From Arcobacter roscoffensis (GTDB taxonomy: Bacteria; Campylobacterota; Campylobacteria; Campylobacterales; Arcobacteraceae), in assembly GCF_024267655.1 (NCBI RefSeq), contig NZ_CP100595.1, positions 1,302,001 through 1,366,000 on the forward strand: a stretch of DNA of 64,000 bases. The letters run 5' to 3'. The position numbers were made by a program, and so were the translations under genes. Within the stretch, counting starts at the first letter, position 1. Every line of letters starts with the position of its first letter. This document shows, piece by piece, positions 28,361 to 42,044 of this stretch. Below the pieces are notes generated by a model that worked only from the letters and a program-made list of their open reading frames with translations, was not told where the DNA came from and did not search any database.

Positions 28361-28957
28361 ATATCTACTGCAAAAGAGACTAAAAAAAACAATATTATTG
28401 AAAATTCTTTAAAACTATTTTCTAAAAAAGGTTTTTATAATACAACTATTCCAGATATTGCAAAAGCCATGAAAATGAGTGTTGGAAATATGTATAACTA
28501 CTTCTCTTCAAAAGAAGAGCTAGCAAAATATGCTATTAAATACTCTACAAATATTTTAGCAGCAGAACTAAGAGAAATAAATCAAATGGATATTTCTTCA
28601 AAAGAGAAAGTATATCTTTTTGTAAAAAACTATTTTGAAAATGTTAAAAACTCACCTGAAGTGGTTGAGTATTTTTTAAGGGTTTACTTATCAAATAGAG
28701 AAGTGTTCAAAGAAGGTTGTGAAGGCTTTTTGTGTGTAGGAGAGTTTGTAACAGAAGTTATGATTCTTTTAGATGAAGGGGCTCAAAATAAAGAGTTTAG
28801 AGAACAAGATTTTTTCCCTGCATTTGCTATGATTATGGGTTGTTTAGGTGGCTTTGCTTTTTTAAGTGGTGAGGCTGTTCTTGACAAAGATTTATTAGAG
28901 TATTCAGATCCAATTGCTGATAATATCTACAGAGCCTTAAAGTATGAAGAGTCATAA
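28361..28957 (+). CDS. TetR family transcriptional regulator, apparently initiated at AUA
   Basis: The frame stays open upstream of the first ATG (28469) to a stop at 28349 and encodes the first half of a TetR DNA-binding domain: KNNIIENSLKLFSKKGFYN, then TTIPDIAKAMKMSVGNMYNYF. Starting at ATG 28469 would delete helix 1 and most of the helix-turn-helix. The only sensible start is ATA at 28361 (ISTAKETKK...), 6 bases after AAGGA; ATC at 28358 is a poorer alternative. This gives 198 residues, normal for TetR. The ligand domain holds a CX4C pair (Cys120, Cys125) that could sense redox state or metal. The stop overlaps the hupU-like start by 14 bases. The probable role is control of the hydrogenase genes. 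Confidence 0.75.
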   Translation: MSTAKETKKNNIIENSLKLFSKKGFYNTTIPDIAKAMKMSVGNMYNYFSSKEELAKYAIKYSTNILAAELREINQMDISSKEKVYLFVKNYFENVKNSPEVVEYFLRVYLSNREVFKEGCEGFLCVGEFVTEVMILLDEGAQNKEFREQDFFPAFAMIMGCLGGFAFLSGEAVLDKDLLEYSDPIADNIYRALKYEES

Positions 28958-29831
28958 ACCAACAATTGTATGGTATCAAGCAGTTACTTGTAATGGTAAT
29001 ACTCACTCACTTTTAAGTGCAAGCTCTTCAAGGTTAGAGCTATTTTTAAATAGCTTTGATCTTATCTATCATCCCTCACTTACAATTGACACAACTTTAG
29101 ATGATATTTTAAAACTAAAAGACATTGATTTTTTATTAGTTGAAGGAGCTATTACTTCTGATGAAAAGTATTATTCAATTAATCAAAACTCAACAAAAAA
29201 TATTTTAGAAAAGTTATCTCAAAAAGCAAAATATATAATAAGTGTTGGTTCATGTGCCTCTTATGGTGGAGTTCATAAAAAGTTTGAACAAAATGATGAT
29301 ATTTTAGGTGTTGAAGAAATTATAGACACAAAAAAATATAAAAACTTAAAACATGAAATAGTAAATCTTACAGGCTGCCCTGTGCACCCAGAATGGATAC
29401 TTCAAACAGTTTTTTCTTTAAATAGCTTTTCTAGGATGAGTTTAGATGATGAAAAAAGACCACGAGAGCTTTATAGTAATTTAGCTCACCATGGTTGTAC
29501 TAGAAATGAGTATTTTGAATGGAAAGTCGAAGGTGACTTTGGGCAAAAAGAGGGATGTTTATTTTATGACCAAGGATGTAGGGGACCTATGACTCATAGT
29601 TCATGTAATAAAATCTTATGGAATGATGTGAGTTCTAAAACAAGAGCCGGTATGCCATGTATTGGCTGTACGGAAAAAGACTTTCCAAGAGAGAATATGC
29701 TTGAAACAAAAAAGAACATAGGAATTCCTTTAGATGTACCACTTGGTATTCCTAAACGTGCATATCTTTCAATAACAGGTGTTGCAAAGACTTTTAAAAT
29801 AGATAGATTAAATAAAAAACTAATGGATTAG
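28944..29831 (+). CDS. hupU: [NiFe] hydrogenase small subunit, cytoplasmic HupU-like
   Basis: A 295-residue small subunit with no Tat signal, so it is cytoplasmic. Iron-sulfur ligands seen: Cys16 in VTCNGNTHS, Cys in GSCASYGG and Cys in TGCPVHPEW for the proximal cluster, then HHGC, EGCLFYDQGC, SSC and PCIGC for the outer clusters. At the position normally giving the second Cys of CxxC there is Asn19. The gene overlaps the TetR gene and is followed by the large subunit 2 bases later. It belongs to the cytoplasmic uptake/sensory type (group 2); whether it senses H2 or oxidises it is not settled by the sequence. Confidence 0.82.
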   Translation: MKSHKPTIVWYQAVTCNGNTHSLLSASSSRLELFLNSFDLIYHPSLTIDTTLDDILKLKDIDFLLVEGAITSDEKYYSINQNSTKNILEKLSQKAKYIISVGSCASYGGVHKKFEQNDDILGVEEIIDTKKYKNLKHEIVNLTGCPVHPEWILQTVFSLNSFSRMSLDDEKRPRELYSNLAHHGCTRNEYFEWKVEGDFGQKEGCLFYDQGCRGPMTHSSCNKILWNDVSSKTRAGMPCIGCTEKDFPRENMLETKKNIGIPLDVPLGIPKRAYLSITGVAKTFKIDRLNKKLMD

Positions 29832-29833
29832 CT

Positions 29834-31189
29834 TTGAAAACAGTAGATATAGTAGAGAGAATAGAAGGTGAAGCAAGACTTAACTGTACTTGGGAAAATG
29901 GCTTTGTCAAAGATACCCAAATAGATTTTTTAAATTTTAGAGGTTTTGAGTATATATTAGAAGGTAAACCAGCTTTAGATGCACTTGTATACACTCCAAG
30001 AATTTGTGGAATTTGTGGACAGGCTCATTTAAAAGCTACTGTTGAAGCTTTGGAGAATATTTATAAAAGTCTAAATGAAGAACTAGTTATTACAAATAAA
30101 GCTAAGATTTTAAGAGAAATAGGTTTAAATATTGAAATAATTGATTCACATATAAAATGGTTTTATATGTTTATTTTACCTGATGTAATTAAACTTAAAG
30201 AAAATGACTTAAAAGAGTACTCACCGCTAAAAGGCAAAAGATGGTTAGAAGCTTGTAAAACAGCAAGTGAAACTATAAAAGCTTTAGCAATTATAGGCGG
30301 TCAGTGGCCACATACTTCTTATATGATACCAGGTGGAGTAGTAAGTGACCCAACTTTACTTGACTTGACTTCTATGATGAACTATTTGGATTTAGCAATT
30401 AACTTTTTTGAAGACTCTATTGCCGGAGTTAGTTTTGATAAATATTTATCTTTTAATAGTGTAGATGATTTAAATATTTTAAATGAGGATTTAAAATATT
30501 TTACAAACTTGAGTTTTGAATACTCACTGCAAAAATATGGCACTTCTTATGATAGACATCTTGCACTAAGTGACTCTTCTATTTCTAAAAGAGGAAAGAT
30601 TAGGCAAAGACTTACAGATAAACTTGACTTAAATAAGATAAAAGAGAATTGTGATAGAACTTTTAAAGTTGAAGAAGATAGTAAAAATAAAGAGAAACAT
30701 ACTTGGTCAAAAGCAGTTACTTATAACTCAATGTTTTATGAAACAGGACCTTTTTCTCGTGCGATGGTTTCACATAGAGAGTTTATTTATGAGCTTCATA
30801 AATCATATAAAGACTCAGTATTTACAAGAGTAATGGCAAGAGTTGATGAAATCGCTCACCTTTTACATAGTACAAAAGAGTTAATCAAACAAGTAGATAT
30901 AAGTGAAGAGTCTTATATAAAACCAAAAATATCACTAAAAGATATACCAAAAGCAAATGCTAAATCAGTTGTTGAAGCTTGTAGAGGTTCACTTTATCAT
31001 AATGTCTCAATTGAAAAAGGAATTATCACAAAATATGATGTAATCACTCCTACTGTTTGGAACTTAGGTCCTGCTATAAAAGATGAAAAAGGAGTGGCTC
31101 AAAAAGCAATAATTGGCTCACCTTCACTAGATATTGCAAAAATAGTTCTTAGAAGTTTTGATGTTTGCTCTGTTTGTACAACTCACTAA
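29834..31189 (+). CDS. hupV: [NiFe] hydrogenase large subunit, HupV-like, without C-terminal extension
   Basis: A 451-residue large subunit. The active-site cysteines are in RICGICGQAH (N-terminal) and DVCSVCTTH, the very last residues. Ending exactly at this His means there is no peptide to be cleaved by a maturation protease, a feature known from H2-sensing HupV/HoxC subunits. The start is TTG, 2 bases after the small-subunit stop, with GGAT ahead. No HupT/HoxJ-type kinase is encoded beside it; the adjacent regulator is TetR. A cytoplasmic H2-oxidising enzyme remains a possible alternative. Confidence 0.82.
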   Translation: MKTVDIVERIEGEARLNCTWENGFVKDTQIDFLNFRGFEYILEGKPALDALVYTPRICGICGQAHLKATVEALENIYKSLNEELVITNKAKILREIGLNIEIIDSHIKWFYMFILPDVIKLKENDLKEYSPLKGKRWLEACKTASETIKALAIIGGQWPHTSYMIPGGVVSDPTLLDLTSMMNYLDLAINFFEDSIAGVSFDKYLSFNSVDDLNILNEDLKYFTNLSFEYSLQKYGTSYDRHLALSDSSISKRGKIRQRLTDKLDLNKIKENCDRTFKVEEDSKNKEKHTWSKAVTYNSMFYETGPFSRAMVSHREFIYELHKSYKDSVFTRVMARVDEIAHLLHSTKELIKQVDISEESYIKPKISLKDIPKANAKSVVEACRGSLYHNVSIEKGIITKYDVITPTVWNLGPAIKDEKGVAQKAIIGSPSLDIAKIVLRSFDVCSVCTTH

Positions 31190-31455: not shown

Positions 31456-32694
31456 ATGATAGATTCTACAGAGATGGTAAAAAAAGTTTTTACCCAAAAA
31501 TCAGGTAGAGTGGACACAAATAGAGGTGACGAATATTATAATTCTTTATTTGAGAACGCTAAAAATAGATTATCAACTTTAAGAGAGCAAGAGCCACTTA
31601 AAGATATTGATATGATGGATGTAATTGAGAGTGAAGGTGTAAATAGAAGAGATTTCATGAAGTGGGTAAGTGCTACAACTGCTACACTTATGTTACCTCC
31701 TATGTTTGCTCCTTTAGTTGCTGAGGCAACTGAACTTATGAATAGAGTTCCAGTAATTTGGCTTGAGTTACAAGACTGTGCTGGTAATACAGAAGCACTT
31801 TTAAGAAGTAGTGCACCAACTGTTGATGACTTGTTATTTGATGTATTAAGTTTAGAGTTCCACCATGCTTTAATGGCAGGAGCTGGACATGATGCTGAAC
31901 ATCAATTAGATGAAGCAATGGAGCATTTTAAAGATAACTATTTATTATTTGTAGAGGGTTCTATTCCTATGGGAATGAATGGAAACTATGGAACTATTGG
32001 ACCATCAGGTGAGACTTTCCATGACCATTTACAAAGAATTTCTAAACATGCAGCAGCTGTTGTAGCTGTTGGTACTTGTGCTACATTTGGTGGAGTTCCT
32101 GCTGCCTCTCCAAATCCAACTGGTGCTGTTGGTGTTATGGATATTGTAAAAGGTAAGCCAATTATTAATATTCCTGCATGTCCTGCAAACCCTGCAAATA
32201 TGGTTGGTGTAGTTTTACACTATATTTTAACAGGTCAGGTTCCAGAGTTAGACTCACTATTAAGACCTAAGTTCGCATTTGGATATAGAATCCACGATAA
32301 CTGTGAAAGAAGAGCGCACTTTGATGCAGGTGAATTTGTAGAAGAGTGGGGTGATGTTGGAGCTCAAAACAACTGGTGTTTATATAAAGTTGGTTGTAAA
32401 GGTCCTATGACATTTAATAACTGTTCGATTATTAGATATAACGAGGGAACAAACTGGCCTATTGGTGCAGGTCATGGATGTATTGGGTGTTCTGAGCCAG
32501 ACTTCTGGGATAAATATGCTTACCAAAGACCAATGGCAAGTGCAAATATAAAAGCTCCAACAGGTGGAGTTGAGAAAACAGTTGATGAGTTTGGATTAGG
32601 ATTATTAACAGCTACAACAGTAGGTATTGGTGTTCATGCAGTTGCAAGCGCAGTTGCAGGTAAAAAATCAGGTGAAGAAGGAGAAGACAAATAA
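31456..32694 (+). CDS. hydA: Membrane-bound [NiFe] hydrogenase small subunit
   Basis: A 412-residue Tat-exported small subunit. The twin-arginine motif NRRDFMKW is at residues 63-70, after an unusually long n-region of about 60 residues; the hydrophobic core follows. Cluster ligands include Cys108 in DCAGNTE (Asn111 replaces the usual second Cys), GTCATFGG, IPACPANP, HDNCERR, WCLYKVGC, NNCS and HGCIGC. A C-terminal hydrophobic helix (about 380-400) anchors it in the membrane. It carries electrons from H2 to cytochrome b HydC. AGGGAG lies ahead of the ATG. It is first in hydABC, behind several operator-like dyads. Confidence 0.92.
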   Translation: MIDSTEMVKKVFTQKSGRVDTNRGDEYYNSLFENAKNRLSTLREQEPLKDIDMMDVIESEGVNRRDFMKWVSATTATLMLPPMFAPLVAEATELMNRVPVIWLELQDCAGNTEALLRSSAPTVDDLLFDVLSLEFHHALMAGAGHDAEHQLDEAMEHFKDNYLLFVEGSIPMGMNGNYGTIGPSGETFHDHLQRISKHAAAVVAVGTCATFGGVPAASPNPTGAVGVMDIVKGKPIINIPACPANPANMVGVVLHYILTGQVPELDSLLRPKFAFGYRIHDNCERRAHFDAGEFVEEWGDVGAQNNWCLYKVGCKGPMTFNNCSIIRYNEGTNWPIGAGHGCIGCSEPDFWDKYAYQRPMASANIKAPTGGVEKTVDEFGLGLLTATTVGIGVHAVASAVAGKKSGEEGEDK

Positions 32695-34436
32695 TGGCAA
32701 AAAAACACTTAGTAATTGACCCAATTACAAGAATTGAAGGACATCTTAGAATTGAGGCAATTATAGATGAAAACAATGTTGTAACAGATGCATACTCTTC
32801 TTCTACTATGTTTAGAGGAATTGAAGAGATTTTAAAGGGAAGAGACCCAAGAGATTGTGGTTTACTAGCAATGAGAATTTGTGGTGTTTGTACAGGTACT
32901 CACTATCAAAGATCAATAGAAGCAGTTGAGCATGCCTTCAATGTTACTATTCCAAAAAATGCAAGATTAGTTAGAAACTTAATTCAAGGTGCACTTTATG
33001 TACATGACCATATCGTTCATTTTTATCATTTACACGCTCTTGACTGGGTTGATATTACAGAAGCACTTAAAGCTGATCCTAAAAAAACTGTAGCAGAAGC
33101 TCAAAAGTGGGCAAAAGTTGCAGGTGATAGACCATGGAATGCAAGTGAAGATAACTATAAAGCTGTTCAAGAAAGAGTTGAAAAGTATATCAAACAAGGA
33201 AGATTAGGTATTTTTGGAAATGCTTACTGGGGATCAAAAGGCTTTAAACTTACTCCTGAGCAAAACTTAATCGGTTTATCTCACTATCTTGATGCTTTAG
33301 AAATCCAAAGAGAACTTGGAAAAATGATGGCTATCTTTGGTGGTAAAAACCCACACCCACAATCATTTGTTGTTGGTGGTGTTACTTGTGTTCAAGATAT
33401 TAAAAACCCTGCAAGAATTGCTGAGTTTAAACAAATACTAAAAGCTGGAAGAAAGTTCACAAAACAAGCATATTTACCAGATGTTTACATGGCTGGAACT
33501 ATGTATGCTGATGAAGCACTTGAAGGAATTGGTGGAGGTTTAGGAAACTTCATGTCTTATGGTGACTTTAATATGGATGATTTACCATTCTATGAAGCTT
33601 CTAAGTTATTCCCATCAGGTATTGTAAAAAATAAAGATTTATCAAAAGTATATGAAGTAAATCAAGAAAAGATTACAGAAGATGTTACTCATGCTTGGTA
33701 TGAGGGAAGTACAAACCTTCACCCATACGATGGTGAGACTAAACCAAACTTTACAGGTTTTGGTAAAAAAGAAGACAATATCGCTTACTTAGATACTGAA
33801 AATAAATACTCTTGGATTAAATCACCACTATATGATGATGAAAGAATGGAAGTAGGACCACTTGCAAGAATGATTGTAGGTGTTGCAAAAGGTGATGAGA
33901 GAATCTCTAAATATGTAACTACTTTCCTAAAAAATGGTAACTTACCAACAAAAGTTTTATTCTCAACAGTTGGAAGAACAGCTGCAAGAGCTATTGAAAC
34001 TGAACTTATGTGTGATGTTATGATGGAATGGTGTGATGAATTAGCATCAAATGTTGCTCATGGAGATTTATCTACATGGACTGAATTTGACTTTGATTCA
34101 GTATCAGGTGATGTACAAGGTTATGGTATGGCTGAGGCTCCAAGAGGAGGATTAGGTCACTGGGTTAAAATCAAAGATGGAAAAGTTGCAAACTATCAAG
34201 CAGTAGTTCCTTCAACTTGGAATGCAGCCCCTAGAGATTATAAAGGAAGACTTGGTGCTTATGAAGCATCACTTGTTGGTACAAAAGTAGCAAATCCTGA
34301 CCAGCCTTTAGAAATCTTAAGAACTGTTCATAGTTTTGATCCTTGTATTGCTTGTGCTGTACATATTATTGATACAAATGGAAAAGAGTTAGGTGTTTAT
34401 AAAGTAGATCCAATAGGAGGGACAAGCCGTGCCTAA
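32694..34436 (+). CDS. hydB: Membrane-bound [NiFe] hydrogenase large subunit
   Basis: A 580-residue catalytic subunit holding the NiFe(CN)2CO site. The cysteine motifs are RICGVCTGTH (N-terminal) and DPCIACAVH near the end; the 23 residues after that His are the tail removed by the maturation protease HydD. The opening DPITRIEGHLRIE is typical of periplasm-facing group 1 enzymes. The ATG overlaps the hydA stop (TAATG). It is exported with HydA by the Tat system and couples H2 oxidation to quinone reduction. Confidence 0.95.
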   Translation: MAKKHLVIDPITRIEGHLRIEAIIDENNVVTDAYSSSTMFRGIEEILKGRDPRDCGLLAMRICGVCTGTHYQRSIEAVEHAFNVTIPKNARLVRNLIQGALYVHDHIVHFYHLHALDWVDITEALKADPKKTVAEAQKWAKVAGDRPWNASEDNYKAVQERVEKYIKQGRLGIFGNAYWGSKGFKLTPEQNLIGLSHYLDALEIQRELGKMMAIFGGKNPHPQSFVVGGVTCVQDIKNPARIAEFKQILKAGRKFTKQAYLPDVYMAGTMYADEALEGIGGGLGNFMSYGDFNMDDLPFYEASKLFPSGIVKNKDLSKVYEVNQEKITEDVTHAWYEGSTNLHPYDGETKPNFTGFGKKEDNIAYLDTENKYSWIKSPLYDDERMEVGPLARMIVGVAKGDERISKYVTTFLKNGNLPTKVLFSTVGRTAARAIETELMCDVMMEWCDELASNVAHGDLSTWTEFDFDSVSGDVQGYGMAEAPRGGLGHWVKIKDGKVANYQAVVPSTWNAAPRDYKGRLGAYEASLVGTKVANPDQPLEILRTVHSFDPCIACAVHIIDTNGKELGVYKVDPIGGTSRA

Positions 34437-35142
34437 AATAAAAAAGGTTAGAAGAATGACTGTAACCATGCGAATCATTCACTGGGTAACAGTGATAAGC
34501 ATGATTATTGCAGTTGTAACCGGTCTTTATATAGGTCACCCTTATTATCAAACTTTTATTGCTGATCCAGCTGTGGATAAGTATGTTATGGCTTGGAATA
34601 GATGGTGGCATTTTATTGTTGCAATTATATTTGATGTAACTGCAATTTTAGTTGGGTATTTATACTTCTTCTCAAGGTTTGAAAAGCCTTATAAGAAGTT
34701 GATTCCAAATAAGCAAAATCTTGTAGAGTTTTGGGAAGTTCTTTTAAATCTAATTACTTTAAATAGAAGAAAAAAGTTTGACTCAACTCATAGTGATAGT
34801 TTTAATACTGTATTTTTTACAGTATTTCACTTACTATTAGTACTTATGTTATTTACAGGTTTACAGTTATATGTACACGCACTTGCTTCTGGTACATCTT
34901 CAATCGGTGCTTGGTGGCCTGCAATGCTTCACTTAGTTACTGATTGGACGCTATATGTATTTGGTGGAAATATGGGTGTTAGATATACTCATCACTTTAG
35001 TATGTATCTAATCATCATGTGGGTTATGTTCCATGTTTACTATCAAGTATGGAGAACAATCTTCTGGCAAGAAGGAGACATCGCTATAGTTGTTGGTGGT
35101 TCTAAATTTGTAAAAGAAGAAGAGGATAAAAAACAGGATTAA
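34429..35142 (+). CDS. hydC: Hydrogenase cytochrome b subunit
   Basis: A 237-residue membrane protein with four predicted helices and His residues placed for two hemes (RIIHWVTVI, WWHFIVA, YTHHFSMY, WVMFHVYYQV). It passes electrons from HydA to the quinone pool. The start is GTG with GGAGGG ahead, overlapping hydB by 8 bases. A terminator-like hairpin surrounds its stop codon, so hydDE downstream may be expressed at a lower level. Confidence 0.92.
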   Translation: MPKIKKVRRMTVTMRIIHWVTVISMIIAVVTGLYIGHPYYQTFIADPAVDKYVMAWNRWWHFIVAIIFDVTAILVGYLYFFSRFEKPYKKLIPNKQNLVEFWEVLLNLITLNRRKKFDSTHSDSFNTVFFTVFHLLLVLMLFTGLQLYVHALASGTSSIGAWWPAMLHLVTDWTLYVFGGNMGVRYTHHFSMYLIIMWVMFHVYYQVWRTIFWQEGDIAIVVGGSKFVKEEEDKKQD

Positions 35143-35230: not shown

Positions 35231-35818
35231 ATGAAGAAAAATATAGTTGTTGGTGTAGGAAATATGCTTTTCAAAGATGAGGGTGTTGGTATTTATGCCT
35301 CTGAGTATTTAAAACAAAACTATGAGTTTGATGGGGATTTAGAGATTATAGATGGTGGTACATTAGGTTTTAAACTAATGACATATTTTCAAGAGTATGA
35401 AAATGTAATTATTCTTGATACTGTATCTATTGAAGAGAATGCAGGTGAGATATATAGACTTCCTTCTGATGTACTTTTAGGCATGGGAAACTACAGAAAA
35501 ACTGCCCATGAAGTAGAAATAGTTGAAATGCTTGAGATTGTATCTGTTTTAGACTCTCATGCTAAAGTTACTATTTTAGGAATTATTCCTGAAGATATAA
35601 TCTCTGTTGGTATTGGTTTGACTGAAACTATTGAAAATAGATTTGAAGAGTTTATTTTAAACGCTATAAAAGAGATAGAATCACTTGGCGTAAAAACTAA
35701 AAAAGTAAATAATATAGCCATACCAGATATTGTAAAAAGTATGATTGGTAGTTATAATGGTGAACACTTAAGTAGAATTCCAAATGAAGAAGATATAAGA
35801 CATGCAACTAATATATAA
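35231..35818 (+). CDS. hydD: Hydrogenase maturation protease
   Basis: A 195-residue endopeptidase of the HyaD/HybD family, with VGVGNMLFKDEGVG and EIIDGGTLGFKL; the acidic residues and a later His (KTAHEVE) are the nickel-binding set used to recognise the loaded large subunit. It removes the C-terminal tail of HydB. GGAG lies ahead of the ATG. The C-terminal 40 residues go beyond the usual protease core. It overlaps hydE by 17 bases. Confidence 0.9.
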   Translation: MKKNIVVGVGNMLFKDEGVGIYASEYLKQNYEFDGDLEIIDGGTLGFKLMTYFQEYENVIILDTVSIEENAGEIYRLPSDVLLGMGNYRKTAHEVEIVEMLEIVSVLDSHAKVTILGIIPEDIISVGIGLTETIENRFEEFILNAIKEIESLGVKTKKVNNIAIPDIVKSMIGSYNGEHLSRIPNEEDIRHATNI

Positions 35819-37340
35819 AATAGAATTTAATACAACTAACTCATATTTCAAATACATAATAAATAAACTAATAGATGAAGCAAACGTAAATGCCACTTGT
35901 AAACAATACAAAGGCTTTATAATCTTAAAGATTGAAGAGAGTGCAGAGAATATTGAGAGCTTTTTTGCATTACTTGAAAAAAAGCTTCCTGTTTCGATTT
36001 TTTTAGGAAAGTCATATGTAATAGAAGAGTTTGATGAAACAATAGAAGAGTTAGAGTGTAAAGAAATAAAACAAAACCTTACACTTTTAACAAACGACTC
36101 AATCAAAGATATTATAGAAAACAACGATATTGACTTTTTAAATGATATAGTAAAAATCTCAAAAGGTGGAGTTTCAAGATTTGAAACACACAATGGTTTA
36201 AAAGATCTATTTTTACCAAATAAAGAGTTAAGAGAAGAGTTTGAAAGTAAAGGTCATGAAGTAAAACTTCTAATTACTGATTTAAATAAAATCACAGACT
36301 TATTTGATGTAAGTGCAAAAGATTTACAACTTTTATGCTCTATAGAAAGACCTCTTGTAAAACTAAAGTTTAAACTTTTACAAAACAAAGAAAATGAGTA
36401 CTCATCTACAAACTTTATTTATGCAAAAATACCTGATGATAAAGAAACGGTTTTATTTGCTCAGGCTTTAAAACAAAAAGATATTTCTCATATACTTTAT
36501 GTAAATGATGATGTTTATCAAGATGGACTAAAAGTTACATATTTCAATGATGAGAACCTAATCATACATGGAGATAAAGGTCTTTTCCCTAAGTTTGATT
36601 ATCTAGCAAATAAGAAGTTTAACTCTTCAAAAGAGTATTTTGATGAAAATGGAGGAGTTTATAAAGCAATACTAGCTCAAAATAATAAAAGACTTGTTCC
36701 AAGTGCAGGAGTTTACTTCTCTTCTAACTCAAATAAAAGCTCGGTTTTAATGAACCTTCCAACAAAGGGTTTAAAAGAAGTAATAGCAATACCAAATATA
36801 ATAAACTCTTTTGAAAACTGTTTAGAAGAAATAACAGAAATAGATGAGTTTTGTGAAAGACTTGTTTCAAACTATAAAAACAAATTTCCAACATATTTTG
36901 AGGATATGAGTGTAGATAAAAATGCTCATGGTTTTGAATCTATTATAAATATGTGTGCAAAAGCCTTAGGTATGAAAGGTGGAGCAAAAGAGTTTGAAGA
37001 TACAGCTTTAAGTATAAACATAAAAAGTGGTATTCAAATAGATATGAAGCTTGTAAATTTAGATGGGGTTAACTATCTAGATTATAGAAGAACGGTTCAA
37101 TCTATCATGTCATATAAGATGGCAGATGTAGATAATGCTACTTTAGCTTACTCTTTTTATGAAAGCCTTAGTGAGTTTATCTGTAACTATACAGATGAGG
37201 TTGCAAAAGAGATAAAAGCAAAAGACGTAGTAATGAGCGGAGATATGTTCTCAAACTCAATCTTACTTTCAAAAACACATAAAAAACTAAGTAAAAACTA
37301 TAACTTCATTCTTCCTAAAGAGTATCCTTTAGATTACTAA
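35802..37340 (+). CDS. hydE: HydE hydrogenase accessory protein, a shortened HypF/Kae1-like protein
   Basis: A 512-residue protein in the position of epsilonproteobacterial hydE. Reading it against HypF encoded at 39819 shows parallels: an acylphosphatase-like start (about 1-90) without the VQGVGFRP catalytic loop; KRLVPSAGVYFSSNSNKSSV (about 295) opposite KKILALGANQKSAIAI; FEDTALSINIKSG opposite YEGETGLLIEQNY; and DVVMSGDMFSNSILL (475) opposite EVVLSGGVFQNKTLL. The zinc fingers, HHYAH metal motif and GTGYGDDG nucleotide motif are missing. It is therefore probably a non-catalytic HypF relative that helps mature HydAB. The homology was judged by eye. Confidence 0.7.
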   Translation: MQLIYKIEFNTTNSYFKYIINKLIDEANVNATCKQYKGFIILKIEESAENIESFFALLEKKLPVSIFLGKSYVIEEFDETIEELECKEIKQNLTLLTNDSIKDIIENNDIDFLNDIVKISKGGVSRFETHNGLKDLFLPNKELREEFESKGHEVKLLITDLNKITDLFDVSAKDLQLLCSIERPLVKLKFKLLQNKENEYSSTNFIYAKIPDDKETVLFAQALKQKDISHILYVNDDVYQDGLKVTYFNDENLIIHGDKGLFPKFDYLANKKFNSSKEYFDENGGVYKAILAQNNKRLVPSAGVYFSSNSNKSSVLMNLPTKGLKEVIAIPNIINSFENCLEEITEIDEFCERLVSNYKNKFPTYFEDMSVDKNAHGFESIINMCAKALGMKGGAKEFEDTALSINIKSGIQIDMKLVNLDGVNYLDYRRTVQSIMSYKMADVDNATLAYSFYESLSEFICNYTDEVAKEIKAKDVVMSGDMFSNSILLSKTHKKLSKNYNFILPKEYPLDY

Positions 37341-37527: not shown

Positions 37528-38076
37528 ATGACAGTAAGTACTAGTAATAATTTAAATCATTTGATTCAAAAAGTTCAATCATCTAATAAAACACAAAATA
37601 CAAAAGAAAGTTCTATGATTCAAAAAGAAGAGCTTGGAGAAAAAAAAGATTCTGAAAGATATAATTTTTTAACTGCAAATGGCTGGTTGGATAATTCAAT
37701 AATTATGAAAGATGAGAAATTGAATGCAGAATTTAGAAATTATGTAGATAATATGAGCGAAGATGAATATTTCTCTTTCCTCACTTCAATGGCTTGTGAT
37801 TTTGCACCAGGATTTGGTAATAATATAAATAATTTGCCTCTTAACGAAGCTCCTTCAAAAAAAGACCCAAACATTGAATTTTCTTCATTATCAAGTATAA
37901 AAAAATACTTTACAGATGAATATAATGAAGTATTAACAAATACTGCTAAATGGGGTGGAGATACAACAAATGCGATAAATACAATAACTAATCTTTTAGA
38001 TTTTTTTAAAAATTATGAATCAAAAGAACAAGAAAAACAATACATTACTTTAGGACAAGGTAGTATAAATGTCTAA
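37528..38076 (+). CDS. Unknown protein, C-terminal module shared with the next gene
   Basis: A 182-residue soluble protein with no signal peptide. A polar, low-complexity N-terminus (about 1-45) precedes a module (about 46-182) with RYNFLTANGWLDNS, WGGDTTNAINTI and FFKNYESKEQEKQYITLGQG. The same module ends the product of 38132-38890. AAAGG lies about 8 bases ahead of the ATG. The preceding gap (37371-37527) holds very A/T-rich palindromic sequence around TATTAATATATAATATTA. No function is recognised. Confidence 0.65.
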   Translation: MTVSTSNNLNHLIQKVQSSNKTQNTKESSMIQKEELGEKKDSERYNFLTANGWLDNSIIMKDEKLNAEFRNYVDNMSEDEYFSFLTSMACDFAPGFGNNINNLPLNEAPSKKDPNIEFSSLSSIKKYFTDEYNEVLTNTAKWGGDTTNAINTITNLLDFFKNYESKEQEKQYITLGQGSINV

Positions 38077-38250
38077 AAGTATTTTAAAATATATTATGTT
38101 TACAAAATAAAACTAAAAAAAGGAGTTTATAATGCAAGTAACAAATAATACATATACAAACTATTATAATCAAACAAATAGCACAACAAAAGTAGAAAAA
38201 ACAGAAAAAAGCTCTTTTGCTTCAATGTTGACAGGTTCACAAAAAGAAGA
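38002..38250 (+). repeat. Direct repeat, copy 1 (249 bp)
   Basis: It spans the 3' end of gene 37528, the whole intergenic region with its ribosome site and the first about 40 codons of gene 38132. It is repeated at 38816-39064 with an exact 814-bp offset, no gaps and only about six substitutions. Confidence 0.9.
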
Positions 38251-38890
38251 TGTAGATGAGCAAGGAAGATTTCTAAAGTACATGGATAAGTATAATGCAT
38301 TTGATTCCCTTTCACAAGAAGATAGAAAAGTCTTTAGAGAAATACTAAAAGATGACAAAGTAACAATGGCTGAAATAGATAATCTATCTTATAATCAAGC
38401 AGAAATTAGTCAAGAATCATTTAATTTACCAGCAAAAAAACTAGATAAAGGGAATAGTATCGGAAAAGAAAGATATGATGCTTTAGCAATTAATGGCTGG
38501 TTTAAGAATTCTGCTTTTGAAAAAGATGAAAATTTAAAGGAAGAGTTTAAAAGTTATTTGGGAGAAATGTCACAAAGAAGTTTTTCAATGACTTTGTTTT
38601 CTATGATTAGAAGTTTTACTCCTGGAATGGTTGAAAATAATGACTTACTTCCTTTACATTTAGCACCAAAACATAAGGATGCATCGATTGAACTTTCTTC
38701 TGTTTCAAGTATAACTAATTACTTTCAGGATAATTATAACTCAATAGTTGAAAATGTAAATAAATGGGGTGGAGATGCAACAGAGGCACTTAAAAATGTA
38801 TCAGGATTAATTAACTTTTTTAAAAATTATGAATCAAAAGAACAAGAAAAACAATATATTACTTTAGGACAAGGTAGTAGAAATGTCTAA
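38132..38890 (+). CDS. Unknown mosaic protein combining modules of both neighbours
   Basis: A 252-residue protein. Residues 1-92 (MQVTNNTYTNYYNQTN..., LTGSQ, DSLSQEDRKVFREILKDDK) match the start of the protein at 38946; residues about 108-252 (RYDALAINGWFKNS, WGGDATEAL, NYESKEQEKQYITLGQG) match the end of the protein at 37528. It therefore looks like a recombinant of the two. The Asn/Thr/Ser-rich, probably disordered N-terminus would fit an export signal of the flagellar/type III kind, but this is speculative. A strong AAAAGGAG ribosome site lies ahead of the ATG. Confidence 0.7.
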   Translation: MQVTNNTYTNYYNQTNSTTKVEKTEKSSFASMLTGSQKEDVDEQGRFLKYMDKYNAFDSLSQEDRKVFREILKDDKVTMAEIDNLSYNQAEISQESFNLPAKKLDKGNSIGKERYDALAINGWFKNSAFEKDENLKEEFKSYLGEMSQRSFSMTLFSMIRSFTPGMVENNDLLPLHLAPKHKDASIELSSVSSITNYFQDNYNSIVENVNKWGGDATEALKNVSGLINFFKNYESKEQEKQYITLGQGSRNV

Positions 38891-39064
38891 AAGTATTTTA
38901 AAATATATTATGTTTACAAAATAAAACTAAAAAAAGGAGTTTATTATGCAAGTAACAAATAATACATATACAAACTATTATAATCAAACAAATAACACAA
39001 CAAAAGTAGAAAAAACAGAAGAAAGCTCTTTTGCTTCAATGTTGACAGGTTCACAAGAAGAAGA
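38816..39064 (+). repeat. Direct repeat, copy 2 (249 bp)
   Basis: The second copy of 38002-38250 covers the end of gene 38132, the intergenic region and the start of gene 38946. Near-identity across non-coding as well as coding bases points to recent duplication or gene conversion. Confidence 0.9.
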
Positions 39065-39695
39065 GGAAGTTGGTAGGTATGTAAAATATATGGATCAATT
39101 TAATTATTTTGATTCTTTATCAGAAGAAGATAGAAAAGTTTTTAGAGAAATACTAAAAGATGATAAGATAACAATGGCTGAGATGGATAGTTTGAGTTAT
39201 GAGCAAGCAGTAAGATTTGAGAAAGTAGCTTTTCCTCAAGGAAATTTTTCTAAAGAACAACTTAACAATACTCCTATTGTAAACATGCCAAATCAAGCAG
39301 TTCACATGCTCTCTGCCACAAAAAGAACAAATGATAAAACTTTTAACGAAGCTTTATATAGAACAGCAAGAGAAATAGATGACGACTCATACAGAAGGAC
39401 TATTTTTAGAGAAGTAAAAACAAATGTAACACAAGTACATTTTGGAGACCCTTTAGTTGAAACATTTAATGTAATAGCATATGAAAATGCAAAAAATCTT
39501 TGGAAAGAAGATATTGATAAGATGAATATAAACTTTGATAAATTCTTGACAGATGTAATTACTTTACATGAAAAAGCACTAGTAAATCCTAAAACACATC
39601 CTGCGGTTATAGACCAACATCAAGAAAAACTTGATGGATATAATATAATTTTAAAACATTATACTGACATAAAAAAAGAATCAATTTATGCTTGA
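38946..39695 (+). CDS. Unknown protein, N-terminal module shared with the previous gene
   Basis: A 249-residue protein. Residues 1-90 share the MQVTNNTYTNYYNQTN...SFASMLTGSQ and DSLSEEDRKVFREILKDDKITMAEMDSLSYEQA module with the gene at 38132. The remainder (about 95-249) is different, helical and charged (RTAREIDDDSYRRTIFREVK, EKALVNPKTHPAVIDQHQEKL). There is no signal peptide, membrane segment or recognised family. The ribosome site sits in the duplicated intergenic repeat, so all three genes probably form one transcription unit with repeated signals. Confidence 0.7.
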   Translation: MQVTNNTYTNYYNQTNNTTKVEKTEESSFASMLTGSQEEEEVGRYVKYMDQFNYFDSLSEEDRKVFREILKDDKITMAEMDSLSYEQAVRFEKVAFPQGNFSKEQLNNTPIVNMPNQAVHMLSATKRTNDKTFNEALYRTAREIDDDSYRRTIFREVKTNVTQVHFGDPLVETFNVIAYENAKNLWKEDIDKMNINFDKFLTDVITLHEKALVNPKTHPAVIDQHQEKLDGYNIILKHYTDIKKESIYA

Positions 39696-39818
39696 TCTTC
39701 AAAGATTGTTGTATAAATAAGAAGAATGATTAATTAATACTTTAAAACCTTCTTCTAAATAATTTTACAATAAGAATTTTTTTATACAATTATAAAAAAC
39801 TTATATATTGGATGATTG

Positions 39819-42044
39819 ATGAAAACTTTACAAATTGAGATTAAAGGTATAGTTCAAGGAGTAGGGTTTCGACCATATGTATATAATCTAGCTTTAAAAC
39901 ATGAGATAAAAGGTTGGGTTAACAACGATGAAAAAGGAGTAAATATAGTAGTTTACTCTTTTGAAAAAAACTGCGAAAACTTCATAAATGAACTAAAAAA
40001 CAATCCCCCAGTTTTAGCAAGAATAGACTCTTTAGAAATAAAAGAAATAACAAAAATAAAAGAGTATAAAAGCTTTGAGATTATACAAAGTACTAAGCAA
40101 AACAACAAAACTACAATAGTCTCACCAGATATGGCGATATGCCAAGACTGCATAGATGACATAAACGATAAAAACAACTTTAGATACAATTATGCTTTAA
40201 CAAACTGTACAAACTGTGGTCCAAGATACTCTATAATCAAAACAGTTCCCTATGATAGAGAAAATACTTCAATGAGTGAATTTGAATTATGTCAAAAATG
40301 TAAAGAAGAGTATGAAAATCCAACAAATAGAAGATACCATGCCCAACCAGTTGCATGTGAGACTTGTGGACCAAATGTGACTTTGTATAATAAAAATAAA
40401 GAAGTATCTTCAAATATAGAAGCTATAGAACAGTGTGCAAACTATATAGATGAAGGAAAGATTGTTGCAATCAAAGGCTTAGGCGGTTTTCATCTAATTT
40501 GTGATGCAACAAATAGCAAAGTTGTAAAAGAATTAAGACTTAGAAAAAATAGACCAAGTAAACCTTTTGCAGTTATGTTTGATAATATCAAGACTATTAA
40601 AGATTATACAATTTTGAGCTCAAAAGAAGAAGAATTATTAAACTCAAAAGAAAAACCTATAGTTTTAGTCAAAAAAGTAGAACAAGCAGACTTGTGTGAA
40701 GAAGTTGCACCAAATATTGATAGACTAGGGTGCTTTATAGCTTATACACCTTTACATCATCTACTTTTTAGATTTACAAACAAACCTTTAGTTGCAACAA
40801 GTGCAAACTTAAAAGATGAACCTATTATTAGATTTAAAGATGAGATTTTAGAAAAGTTAGGTCATGTGGTGGATTTTGTACTTGATTTTAATAGAGATAT
40901 TGTAAATGCTTGTGATGATTCTGTTATACAAGTTGTGAACAATGATATTTTGAAGCTTAGAAATGCAAGAGCTTATGCCCCTACAGCTATAAACTTACAA
41001 AAAAAGGCAAATAAAAAGATATTAGCTCTTGGAGCAAATCAAAAATCAGCAATAGCAATAGCTTCTGAAAATAATCTTATTTTATCTCCTCATATTGGAG
41101 ATTTAAACTCTATTGATGCAGTGGAGTATTTCATAAGAACTATTGATACATTTAAAAGATTTTATGACTTTGTACCTGATGTTATTGTTTGTGATAAGCA
41201 TCCAAATTATGAGAGTGTAAAATGGGCAAAATCACAAGATATTAAACTTGTACAAGTTCAACATCATTATGCTCATATTTTATCAACTATGGCAGAATAC
41301 AAGCTTGAAAAAGATGTCTTAGGAATAGCTTTTGATGGTACAGGTTATGGTGATGATGGAAATATATGGGGTGGTGAAGCTTTTGTTTGTAATAAAAAAG
41401 AGTATAAAAGAGCTTATCATTTACAGTATTTTAAACTCCTAGGAGGTGAAAAGGCTGTAAAAGAGCCTAAAAGAATAGCTCTATCTCTTCTTTTTGATAA
41501 CTATACTTTAGAAGAGGTTCTATCACAAAACAATAGTGTCGTAAACGCCTTTAGTGGAAATGAGATAAAGCTTTTACATACTATGTGGCAGAAAGATTTA
41601 AATGCCCCACTTACAAGCTCAATAGGAAGGCTTTTTGATGCAGTTGCTAGTATTGCAAATCTTGCTCATATCCAAAGTTATGAGGGAGAAACAGGTCTTT
41701 TGATAGAGCAAAACTATGATGAAAAAATAAAAGATATTTATTCATATGCGTTAAATGAGGAAGAAATAGATATTAGTTCAATGATAAAAGAAATGCTAGA
41801 AGATAAACAAACACAAGTTATATGTACTAAGTTTATAAATACTTTAACTCAGATAATCCTTGATATTTCAAATAGATATGATGATTTAGAAGTGGTTTTA
41901 AGTGGTGGAGTTTTTCAAAATAAAACTCTTTTAGAATTAGTAACAAAAAAGCTTGAAAATCAAAATAAAAAATACTACTACTCAAAACAAATTCCTTTAA
42001 ATGATGGTGGAATTTCAGTAGGTCAAATCTATCATATAACTTAA
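39819..42044 (+). CDS. hypF: Carbamoyltransferase HypF
   Basis: A 741-residue hydrogenase maturation protein. Domains in order: acylphosphatase (VQGVGFRPYVYNLAL, about 1-90), two zinc fingers (CQDC...CTNC and CQKC...CETC, about 105-185), YrdC-like (about 200-385) and Kae1-like (about 400-741, with QHHYAHILS metal motif, FDGTGYGDDGNIWGGE and LSGGVFQNKTLL). It makes the thiocarboxamide on HypE that becomes the cyanide ligands of the NiFe site. The ATG at 39819 has GGAT ahead. It lies about 12.7 kb from hypBCDEA, so hyp genes are split. Confidence 0.95.
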   Translation: MKTLQIEIKGIVQGVGFRPYVYNLALKHEIKGWVNNDEKGVNIVVYSFEKNCENFINELKNNPPVLARIDSLEIKEITKIKEYKSFEIIQSTKQNNKTTIVSPDMAICQDCIDDINDKNNFRYNYALTNCTNCGPRYSIIKTVPYDRENTSMSEFELCQKCKEEYENPTNRRYHAQPVACETCGPNVTLYNKNKEVSSNIEAIEQCANYIDEGKIVAIKGLGGFHLICDATNSKVVKELRLRKNRPSKPFAVMFDNIKTIKDYTILSSKEEELLNSKEKPIVLVKKVEQADLCEEVAPNIDRLGCFIAYTPLHHLLFRFTNKPLVATSANLKDEPIIRFKDEILEKLGHVVDFVLDFNRDIVNACDDSVIQVVNNDILKLRNARAYAPTAINLQKKANKKILALGANQKSAIAIASENNLILSPHIGDLNSIDAVEYFIRTIDTFKRFYDFVPDVIVCDKHPNYESVKWAKSQDIKLVQVQHHYAHILSTMAEYKLEKDVLGIAFDGTGYGDDGNIWGGEAFVCNKKEYKRAYHLQYFKLLGGEKAVKEPKRIALSLLFDNYTLEEVLSQNNSVVNAFSGNEIKLLHTMWQKDLNAPLTSSIGRLFDAVASIANLAHIQSYEGETGLLIEQNYDEKIKDIYSYALNEEEIDISSMIKEMLEDKQTQVICTKFINTLTQIILDISNRYDDLEVVLSGGVFQNKTLLELVTKKLENQNKKYYYSKQIPLNDGGISVGQIYHIT

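Follow-up and report, generated by a model that had tools for sequence, protein, structure and literature searches.

The closest described counterpart of the gene studied here is hydE of the hydABCDE operon of Helicobacter pylori and Wolinella (HP0635), which shares its operon position and its role in a [NiFe] uptake hydrogenase. We assume that the H. pylori gene corresponds to ours, that species not being named among the genomes that were searched. According to passages of one paper, hydE ends its operon in H. pylori and is required for hydrogenase activity, which the mutants lose (PMC7695850, citing Benoit 2004 for the operon). The function of HydE has been stated as unknown (PMC7695850, PMC5557546), and elsewhere the protein was given a role in membrane localisation (PMC4992972). 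Client-specific helpers of exported hydrogenases have been described in other bacteria: HyaE/HyaF, HoxO/HoxQ, HupG/HupH and HybE are possible functional counterparts of HydE and have no sequence relation to it. A precedent of another kind is offered by HoxV/HupK of Cupriavidus and Rhizobium, which aids hydrogenase maturation and is itself a degenerate form of another component of the system, in that case the hydrogenase large subunit and not HypF (PMC12134894). The radical SAM maturase of [FeFe]-hydrogenases that is also called HydE shares only the name. A survey of Sulfurospirillum reported HydE in all eleven genomes, and HydF and HydG in three only (PMC4794192); this count may confuse the [NiFe] hydE with the same-named [FeFe] maturase.

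The locus compared with these systems lies in a stretch of 64,000 nucleotides from Arcobacter roscoffensis, hereafter the window, taken from a host genome of 3.15 Mb whose sampled kin are Campylobacterota. The genes hydA to hydE and hypF lie on the forward (+) strand. A Tat-less pair (28944-31189) is followed by hydA (31456-32694), the Tat-exported small subunit, with the motif NRRDFM in its translation and with orthologues in other loci, hydB (32694-34436), the nickel large subunit, hydC (34429-35142), a membrane cytochrome b (Ni_hydr_CYTB, PF01292, E 6.6e-23) whose presence tracks that of hydE, and hydD (35231-35818), a HycI-type maturation protease (Pfam HycI, E 3.9e-25). The gene hydE (35802-37340, 512 amino acids) starts 17 bases before the end of hydD. 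Three ORFs (37528-39695, + strand; 182, 252 and 249 amino acids) come next; they look related, with stretches common to them, have no Pfam match and are left without an assigned function. They part hydE from hypF, genes that adjoin each other in most relatives. The hypF gene (39816-42044) encodes an intact carbamoyltransferase of 742 residues in which every motif is kept, with its Pfam domains and a score of 841.8 bits against the curated HypF equivalog TIGR00143. HypF is the enzyme behind the cyanide ligands of hydrogenases. Upstream of hydA, positions 28469-31189 hold a TetR-like regulator and then the HupUV-like pair of [NiFe] small and large subunits that lacks a Tat signal; the same arrangement is also seen in Sulfurovum and Sulfurimonas.

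Comparison of protein families shows that HydE is homologous to HypF along its entire length. When a profile of 56 HydEs was aligned with one of 31 HypFs by hhalign, the alignment was full-length with an E-value of 9e-33, and a profile made mainly of long HydEs gave 8.8e-40. In a control series, in which HydE against HypF scored 1.6e-31, the reversed HypF profile gave 0.26, five column-shuffled HypF profiles 0.44-0.81, and the unrelated HydA, HydB, HydC and HydD profiles 0.17-0.89. By segment, HydE residues 1-80 matched only the HypF acylphosphatase domain (E 8.5e-10), residues 81-275 the finger (E 2e-9) and YrdC (E 1.6e-13) domains, and residues 276-512 only the Kae1 domain (E 1.9e-11). Domain-wise hhalign and Foldseek both recovered the HypF order of acylphosphatase, fingers, YrdC and Kae1, trimmed in the window copy. 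Searched against the sequences of the PDB, HydE profiles ranked HypF structures first (3VTH, E 1e-36, and 6.6e-24 in a second search); the window HydE as a single sequence gave nothing significant there, and profiles were needed. The notion that the resemblance is due to chance or low complexity could be entertained on the grounds that pairwise identity is low and that BLASTP between the two window proteins gives no match beyond the final 80 residues (E 7e-4). It is refuted by the profile, Pfam, structural and domain-by-domain tests with their clean controls, and we give it practically no credence.

The preliminary description of this DNA had placed the likeness to HypF in the Kae1-like part and had proposed three pairs of matching segments. 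The likeness is indeed present there, but it runs well beyond, and the proposed pairs stood only in part. The third pair, VVMSGDMFSNSILL with VVLSGGVFQNKTLL, was recovered by BLASTP, hhalign and the Pfam family HypF_C_2 (PF22521), which matches HydE residues 397-509 (E 2e-10, 41.3 bits against a gathering cut-off of 27). For the second pair the region is right and the register uncertain: hhalign aligned it about as claimed, and a combined MAFFT alignment differs, placing SINIKSGIQID opposite SYEGETGLLIE and HydE G410 opposite HypF G627 in 74 of 74 HydEs. The first pair did not hold, since in hhalign KRLVPSAGVYFSS faces HypF EKDVLGIAFDGTG (around residues 497-510) and not KKILALGANQKS (residues 401-412). 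HydE should not be mistaken for a HypF proper: against TIGR00143, with its cut-off of 466 bits, the window HydE scored 25.7 bits and the long HydEs that were tried 120.8 bits at most. It was therefore filed as a pseudo-enzyme homologue of HypF. It also falls below the TsaD/Kae1 Pfam cut-off (16 bits against 24.8).

The predicted structure agrees with this assignment. AlphaFold modelled the window HydE from 63 sequences with a pLDDT of 92.8 and a pTM of 0.89. In a Foldseek search of the PDB the best nine matches of this model were HypF chains (3VTI_A, E 7.6e-21), followed by TsaD/Kae1, bearing out the ASKHA/Kae1 fold that had been expected for residues 285-512. TM-scores to whole HypF, normalised by the length of the query, ranged from 0.49 to 0.68, as would suit a protein with deletions and shifted domains, and a model of a 641-residue HydE gave a TM-score of 0.77 to 3VTI_A (E 3.5e-33). 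Four parts can be delimited in the window protein, all on the + strand: an acylphosphatase-like domain with which the model begins, in the order beta-alpha-beta-beta-alpha-beta (residues 2-74, 36023 being its last base and 35805 its first); a remnant of HypF finger 1 lacking CxxC, with finger 2 deleted in the alignments (residues 92-112, 36075-36137); a YrdC/Sua5-like part that matches HypF YrdC and in which the site table shows the KxR and SxN segments deleted or replaced (residues 113-275, 36138-36626); and the second Kae1-like subdomain, recognised by HypF_C_2, by the HypF Kae1 match and by Foldseek (residues 276-512, 36627-37337). HydE thus resembles HypF (TIGR00143; 3VTH, 3VTI, 4G9I, 3TSP) in domain order, predicted fold and the second Kae1-like subdomain.

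Unlike HypF, HydE is devoid of the catalytic motifs. Two of these, KxR...SxN and HxxH...D, are known as the catalytic motifs of HypF (PMC9654439). HHxxH was found in none of 167 HydEs and in 113 of 113 HypFs, and the acylphosphatase GxGFR in none of 167 HydEs as opposed to 111 of 113 HypFs. The acylphosphatase catalytic R19 and N37 are replaced, by K and Q in the window copy; the YrdC KxR...SxN columns are deleted or unconserved; and the final Asp of HxxH...D, at the position of D730, is replaced. Since the residues for all three HypF reactions are lost, HydE should not make or transfer carbamoyl groups. The losses of the window HydE concern in the main the YrdC catalytic loops and the first Kae1 subdomain (HypF residues 396-482 or so), which is deleted in short HydE forms. 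The proposal that HydE is a catalytically emptied HypF is therefore upheld by the full-length homology, by HypF as the best structural match and by the lost motifs. A further detail needs correction. The part holding HHYAH and GTGYGDDG was said to be absent; the motif residues are gone, but their positions are still aligned in the window HydE and occupied by other residues. The zinc fingers, also said to be absent, are indeed lacking in the window copy; the long orthologues share them with HypF.

The fingers illustrate a stepwise erosion. Long HydEs of about 600-670 residues retain all eight finger cysteines in 24 of 24 cases, with zf-HYPF matches of up to E 5e-16 in Pfam, and across the family the number of CxxC pairs falls from four to two, one and none, the last being the state of the window copy. 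The most reduced HydE seen has 380 residues and occupies the usual place between hydD and hypF (locus L187, 8956-10095, genome G222). Two split hydE genes, in L059 and L082, were considered as natural two-gene forms and rejected; since the gene is full-length in sister copies and related genomes, a frameshift or an interrupted copy is the better reading. Genome G163 carries two hydABC clusters (L058 and L059) with identical HydB, one with an intact hydE and one with an interrupted hydE. The family is diverging very fast, with a mean pairwise distance of 3.35 against 0.97 for HydB. Seven residues are conserved in HydE and HypF alike (F54, P63, G132, P184, G410, G480 and F483 in HydE numbering) and look structural. 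Other sites, among them S65, L354/N357, D414 and S437, are strictly conserved and specific to HydE, and patches of conservation lie around residues 354-357, 410-414 and 434-443.

Among 249 Campylobacterota genomes, 230 had both HydB and HydE, 14 had neither, three had HydB only and two HydE only. Two of the HydB-only genomes, G126 and G129, have only a hydrogenase of flavoprotein-fused type, with HypF present, and the third is G222 with its reduced HydE. In essentially all sampled Campylobacterota having this hydrogenase, hydE is the fifth gene of hydABCDE, and in the loci read it usually comes after hydD. The hypF gene follows within 100 bases in 82 of the 113 loci that carry it, and the frequent position of hydE directly before hypF suggests a tandem duplication. 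In a tree with HypFs of other phyla, HydE forms a single clade on a very long branch, which cannot date its origin. Outside Campylobacterota, the search, centred on a plasmid collection, returned HypF matches only in the plasmids. Within the phylum, complete or near-complete uptake hydrogenase cassettes (hydABC-hydE-hypF plus hyp genes) were seen on plasmids of Sulfurovum mangrovi (L215, NZ_CP087125.1) and Sulfurimonas paralvinellae (L216, NZ_CP041407.1), two species in which NCBI labels the HydE members 'hypothetical protein'.

Several findings link HydE to a particular client, and the earlier suggestion that it is dedicated to this hydrogenase is borne out by them: there is one HydE per hydABC set, its divergence resembles that of HydA and HydB, and HydC-less clusters have no hydE. 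Where a genome has two hydABC sets, each set comes with its own HydE, and there is a single HypF at the locus. HydE distances correlated with those of HydA and HydB at r 0.75-0.76 (0.76 for HydB, and 0.85 given HypF), compared to 0.30-0.32 for HypF (0.32 for HydB) and 0.56 between HydE and HypF, figures that come from related sequences, are not independent tests and partly reflect shared descent. HydAB clusters without the cytochrome HydC are also without hydE and are of two kinds, flavoprotein-fused and multihaem-lipoprotein. An automatic count over clusters gave 66 with both HydC and HydE, 17 with neither and three exceptions, a table biased by the fact that most HydC-positive loci were fetched through HydE; for this reason the co-presence at genome level is the safer result. 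Two of the exceptions (L039, L048) are mis-started HydC ORFs, and in the third (G177) HydE lies on another contig. On the HydB tree the link between HydC and HydE amounts to two changes only, and in one of these both genes were lost within a nested group. We also considered that HydE might go with Tat export and rejected this, as three Tat-type HydAB clusters lack HydE.

In the flavoprotein-fused type, HydA forms the rear part of a protein of about 800 residues that begins with an FAD/NAD(P) oxidoreductase and a [2Fe-2S] domain of BFD type, and there is no Tat signal, HydC or HydE (L182, 6109-8532; also L184, L185, L192, L193, L194, L197, L198, L200, L201 and L202). This is apparently a soluble flavoprotein-hydrogenase. 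Tat-type HydAB without HydC stands beside a multihaem c-type cytochrome lipoprotein, MtrC/cytochrome c7-like, in L189 (6779-8188), L190 (10475-11941) and L191 (9553-10641), which group as a nested clade in the tree of HydB. Possibly this hydrogenase is wired to periplasmic or outer-membrane haems. As HydE is encoded elsewhere in the genomes of these clusters, it may serve them in trans.

What does an emptied HypF do for this hydrogenase? The reading we favour, with a probability of roughly 60%, is that HydE is a pseudo-enzyme of HypF descent that serves HydABC, as its specific client, as a non-catalytic chaperone of both maturation and assembly; the chaperone action, the binding partner and the step of action are what we infer here. 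HydE would have a single origin from HypF, probably by tandem duplication; it has kept the four-domain frame, partly trimmed in the short form, and has lost the residues for all three reactions. It would work in the cytoplasm and bind the HydAB heterodimer, or HydB under maturation, of the HydC-anchored hydrogenase. The binding surfaces would be new or would come down from the HypF-HypE-HypCD pathway, and HydE would help HydAB become mature, export-competent and able to join HydC. HydE may also have a residual nucleotide- or metabolite-binding role. Its ancestry, its position beside hypF and a divergence that follows HydB would also suit an adaptor of the Hyp pathway, which would bind HypE, HypF or HypCD and direct the Fe(CN)2CO precursor towards the apo-HydB that it belongs to; in other systems specificity comes from HypC and HypA paralogues (reviewed in PMC12134894). 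We regard such an adaptor as rather unlikely: within the phylum, HydE is missing from the loci of flavoprotein-fused and HydC-less hydrogenases, G126 and G129 have no HydE at all despite HydB and HypF, and HydE divergence follows HydA and HydB more than HypF.

The company that hydE keeps with HydC, and its absence where a multihaem lipoprotein or a flavoprotein fusion replaces the cytochrome, could instead point to a late action, in which HydE joins exported HydAB to cytochrome b HydC or aids HydC biogenesis, as the membrane localisation role would have it. The window HydE has no signal and no transmembrane segment (highest 19-residue hydropathy 1.06), and an encounter with HydAB after export is therefore not expected. 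Moreover, the H. pylori mutants described in those passages of PMC7695850 lose activity, whereas a pure docking defect would be expected to spare dye-linked activity; a late role is unlikely. Could HydE still be catalytic, with an altered chemistry of carbamoyl or adenylate groups, or with some new reaction that uses the HypF frame? The strict conservation of S65, L354/N357, D414 and S437 would fit a new catalytic role, and S65, D414 and S437 speak for it. Given the loss of all known catalytic motifs, the deletion of the first Kae1 subdomain in short forms and the very fast divergence of the family, we consider this very improbable. The window HydE can also be set apart from these known families: it has neither a radical SAM domain in Pfam nor CxxxCxxC (its cysteines are at 33, 86, 179, 340, 351, 385 and 461 only), and it matches neither PF04809 nor PF11939.

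The HybE (PF11939) and HupH_C (PF04809) families were found in none of 81 Campylobacterota genomes, the E. coli control being positive. Taken with the H. pylori genetics and the membrane localisation role given elsewhere, this result favours the chaperone reading. HyaE (PF07449) had matches in 78 of the 81 and was rejected as a candidate; the matches are nearly confined to the C-terminal end of the model and turn up in B. subtilis and archaea too, so they were read as generic thioredoxins. A wider proposal is tentative, with the odds somewhat against it: HydE would found a class of chaperones made from a dead cofactor-synthesis enzyme, which in Campylobacterota would replace the HyaE/HyaF/HybE types and couple cofactor maturation of HydAB to assembly with HydC, with one HydE per hydABC and one HypF for all.

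The gene hydE is known; the literature we covered, which older subscription papers lie outside, makes no mention of an origin from HypF. One practical consequence is that HydE is not to be counted as HypF or as the [FeFe] maturase. The assignment as a dead HypF turns the open question on HydE into directly testable ones, namely whether HydB, HypE or HydC are its partners and where maturation stops. HydE also shows a multi-domain enzyme eroding stepwise to a non-catalytic helper within a single phylum.
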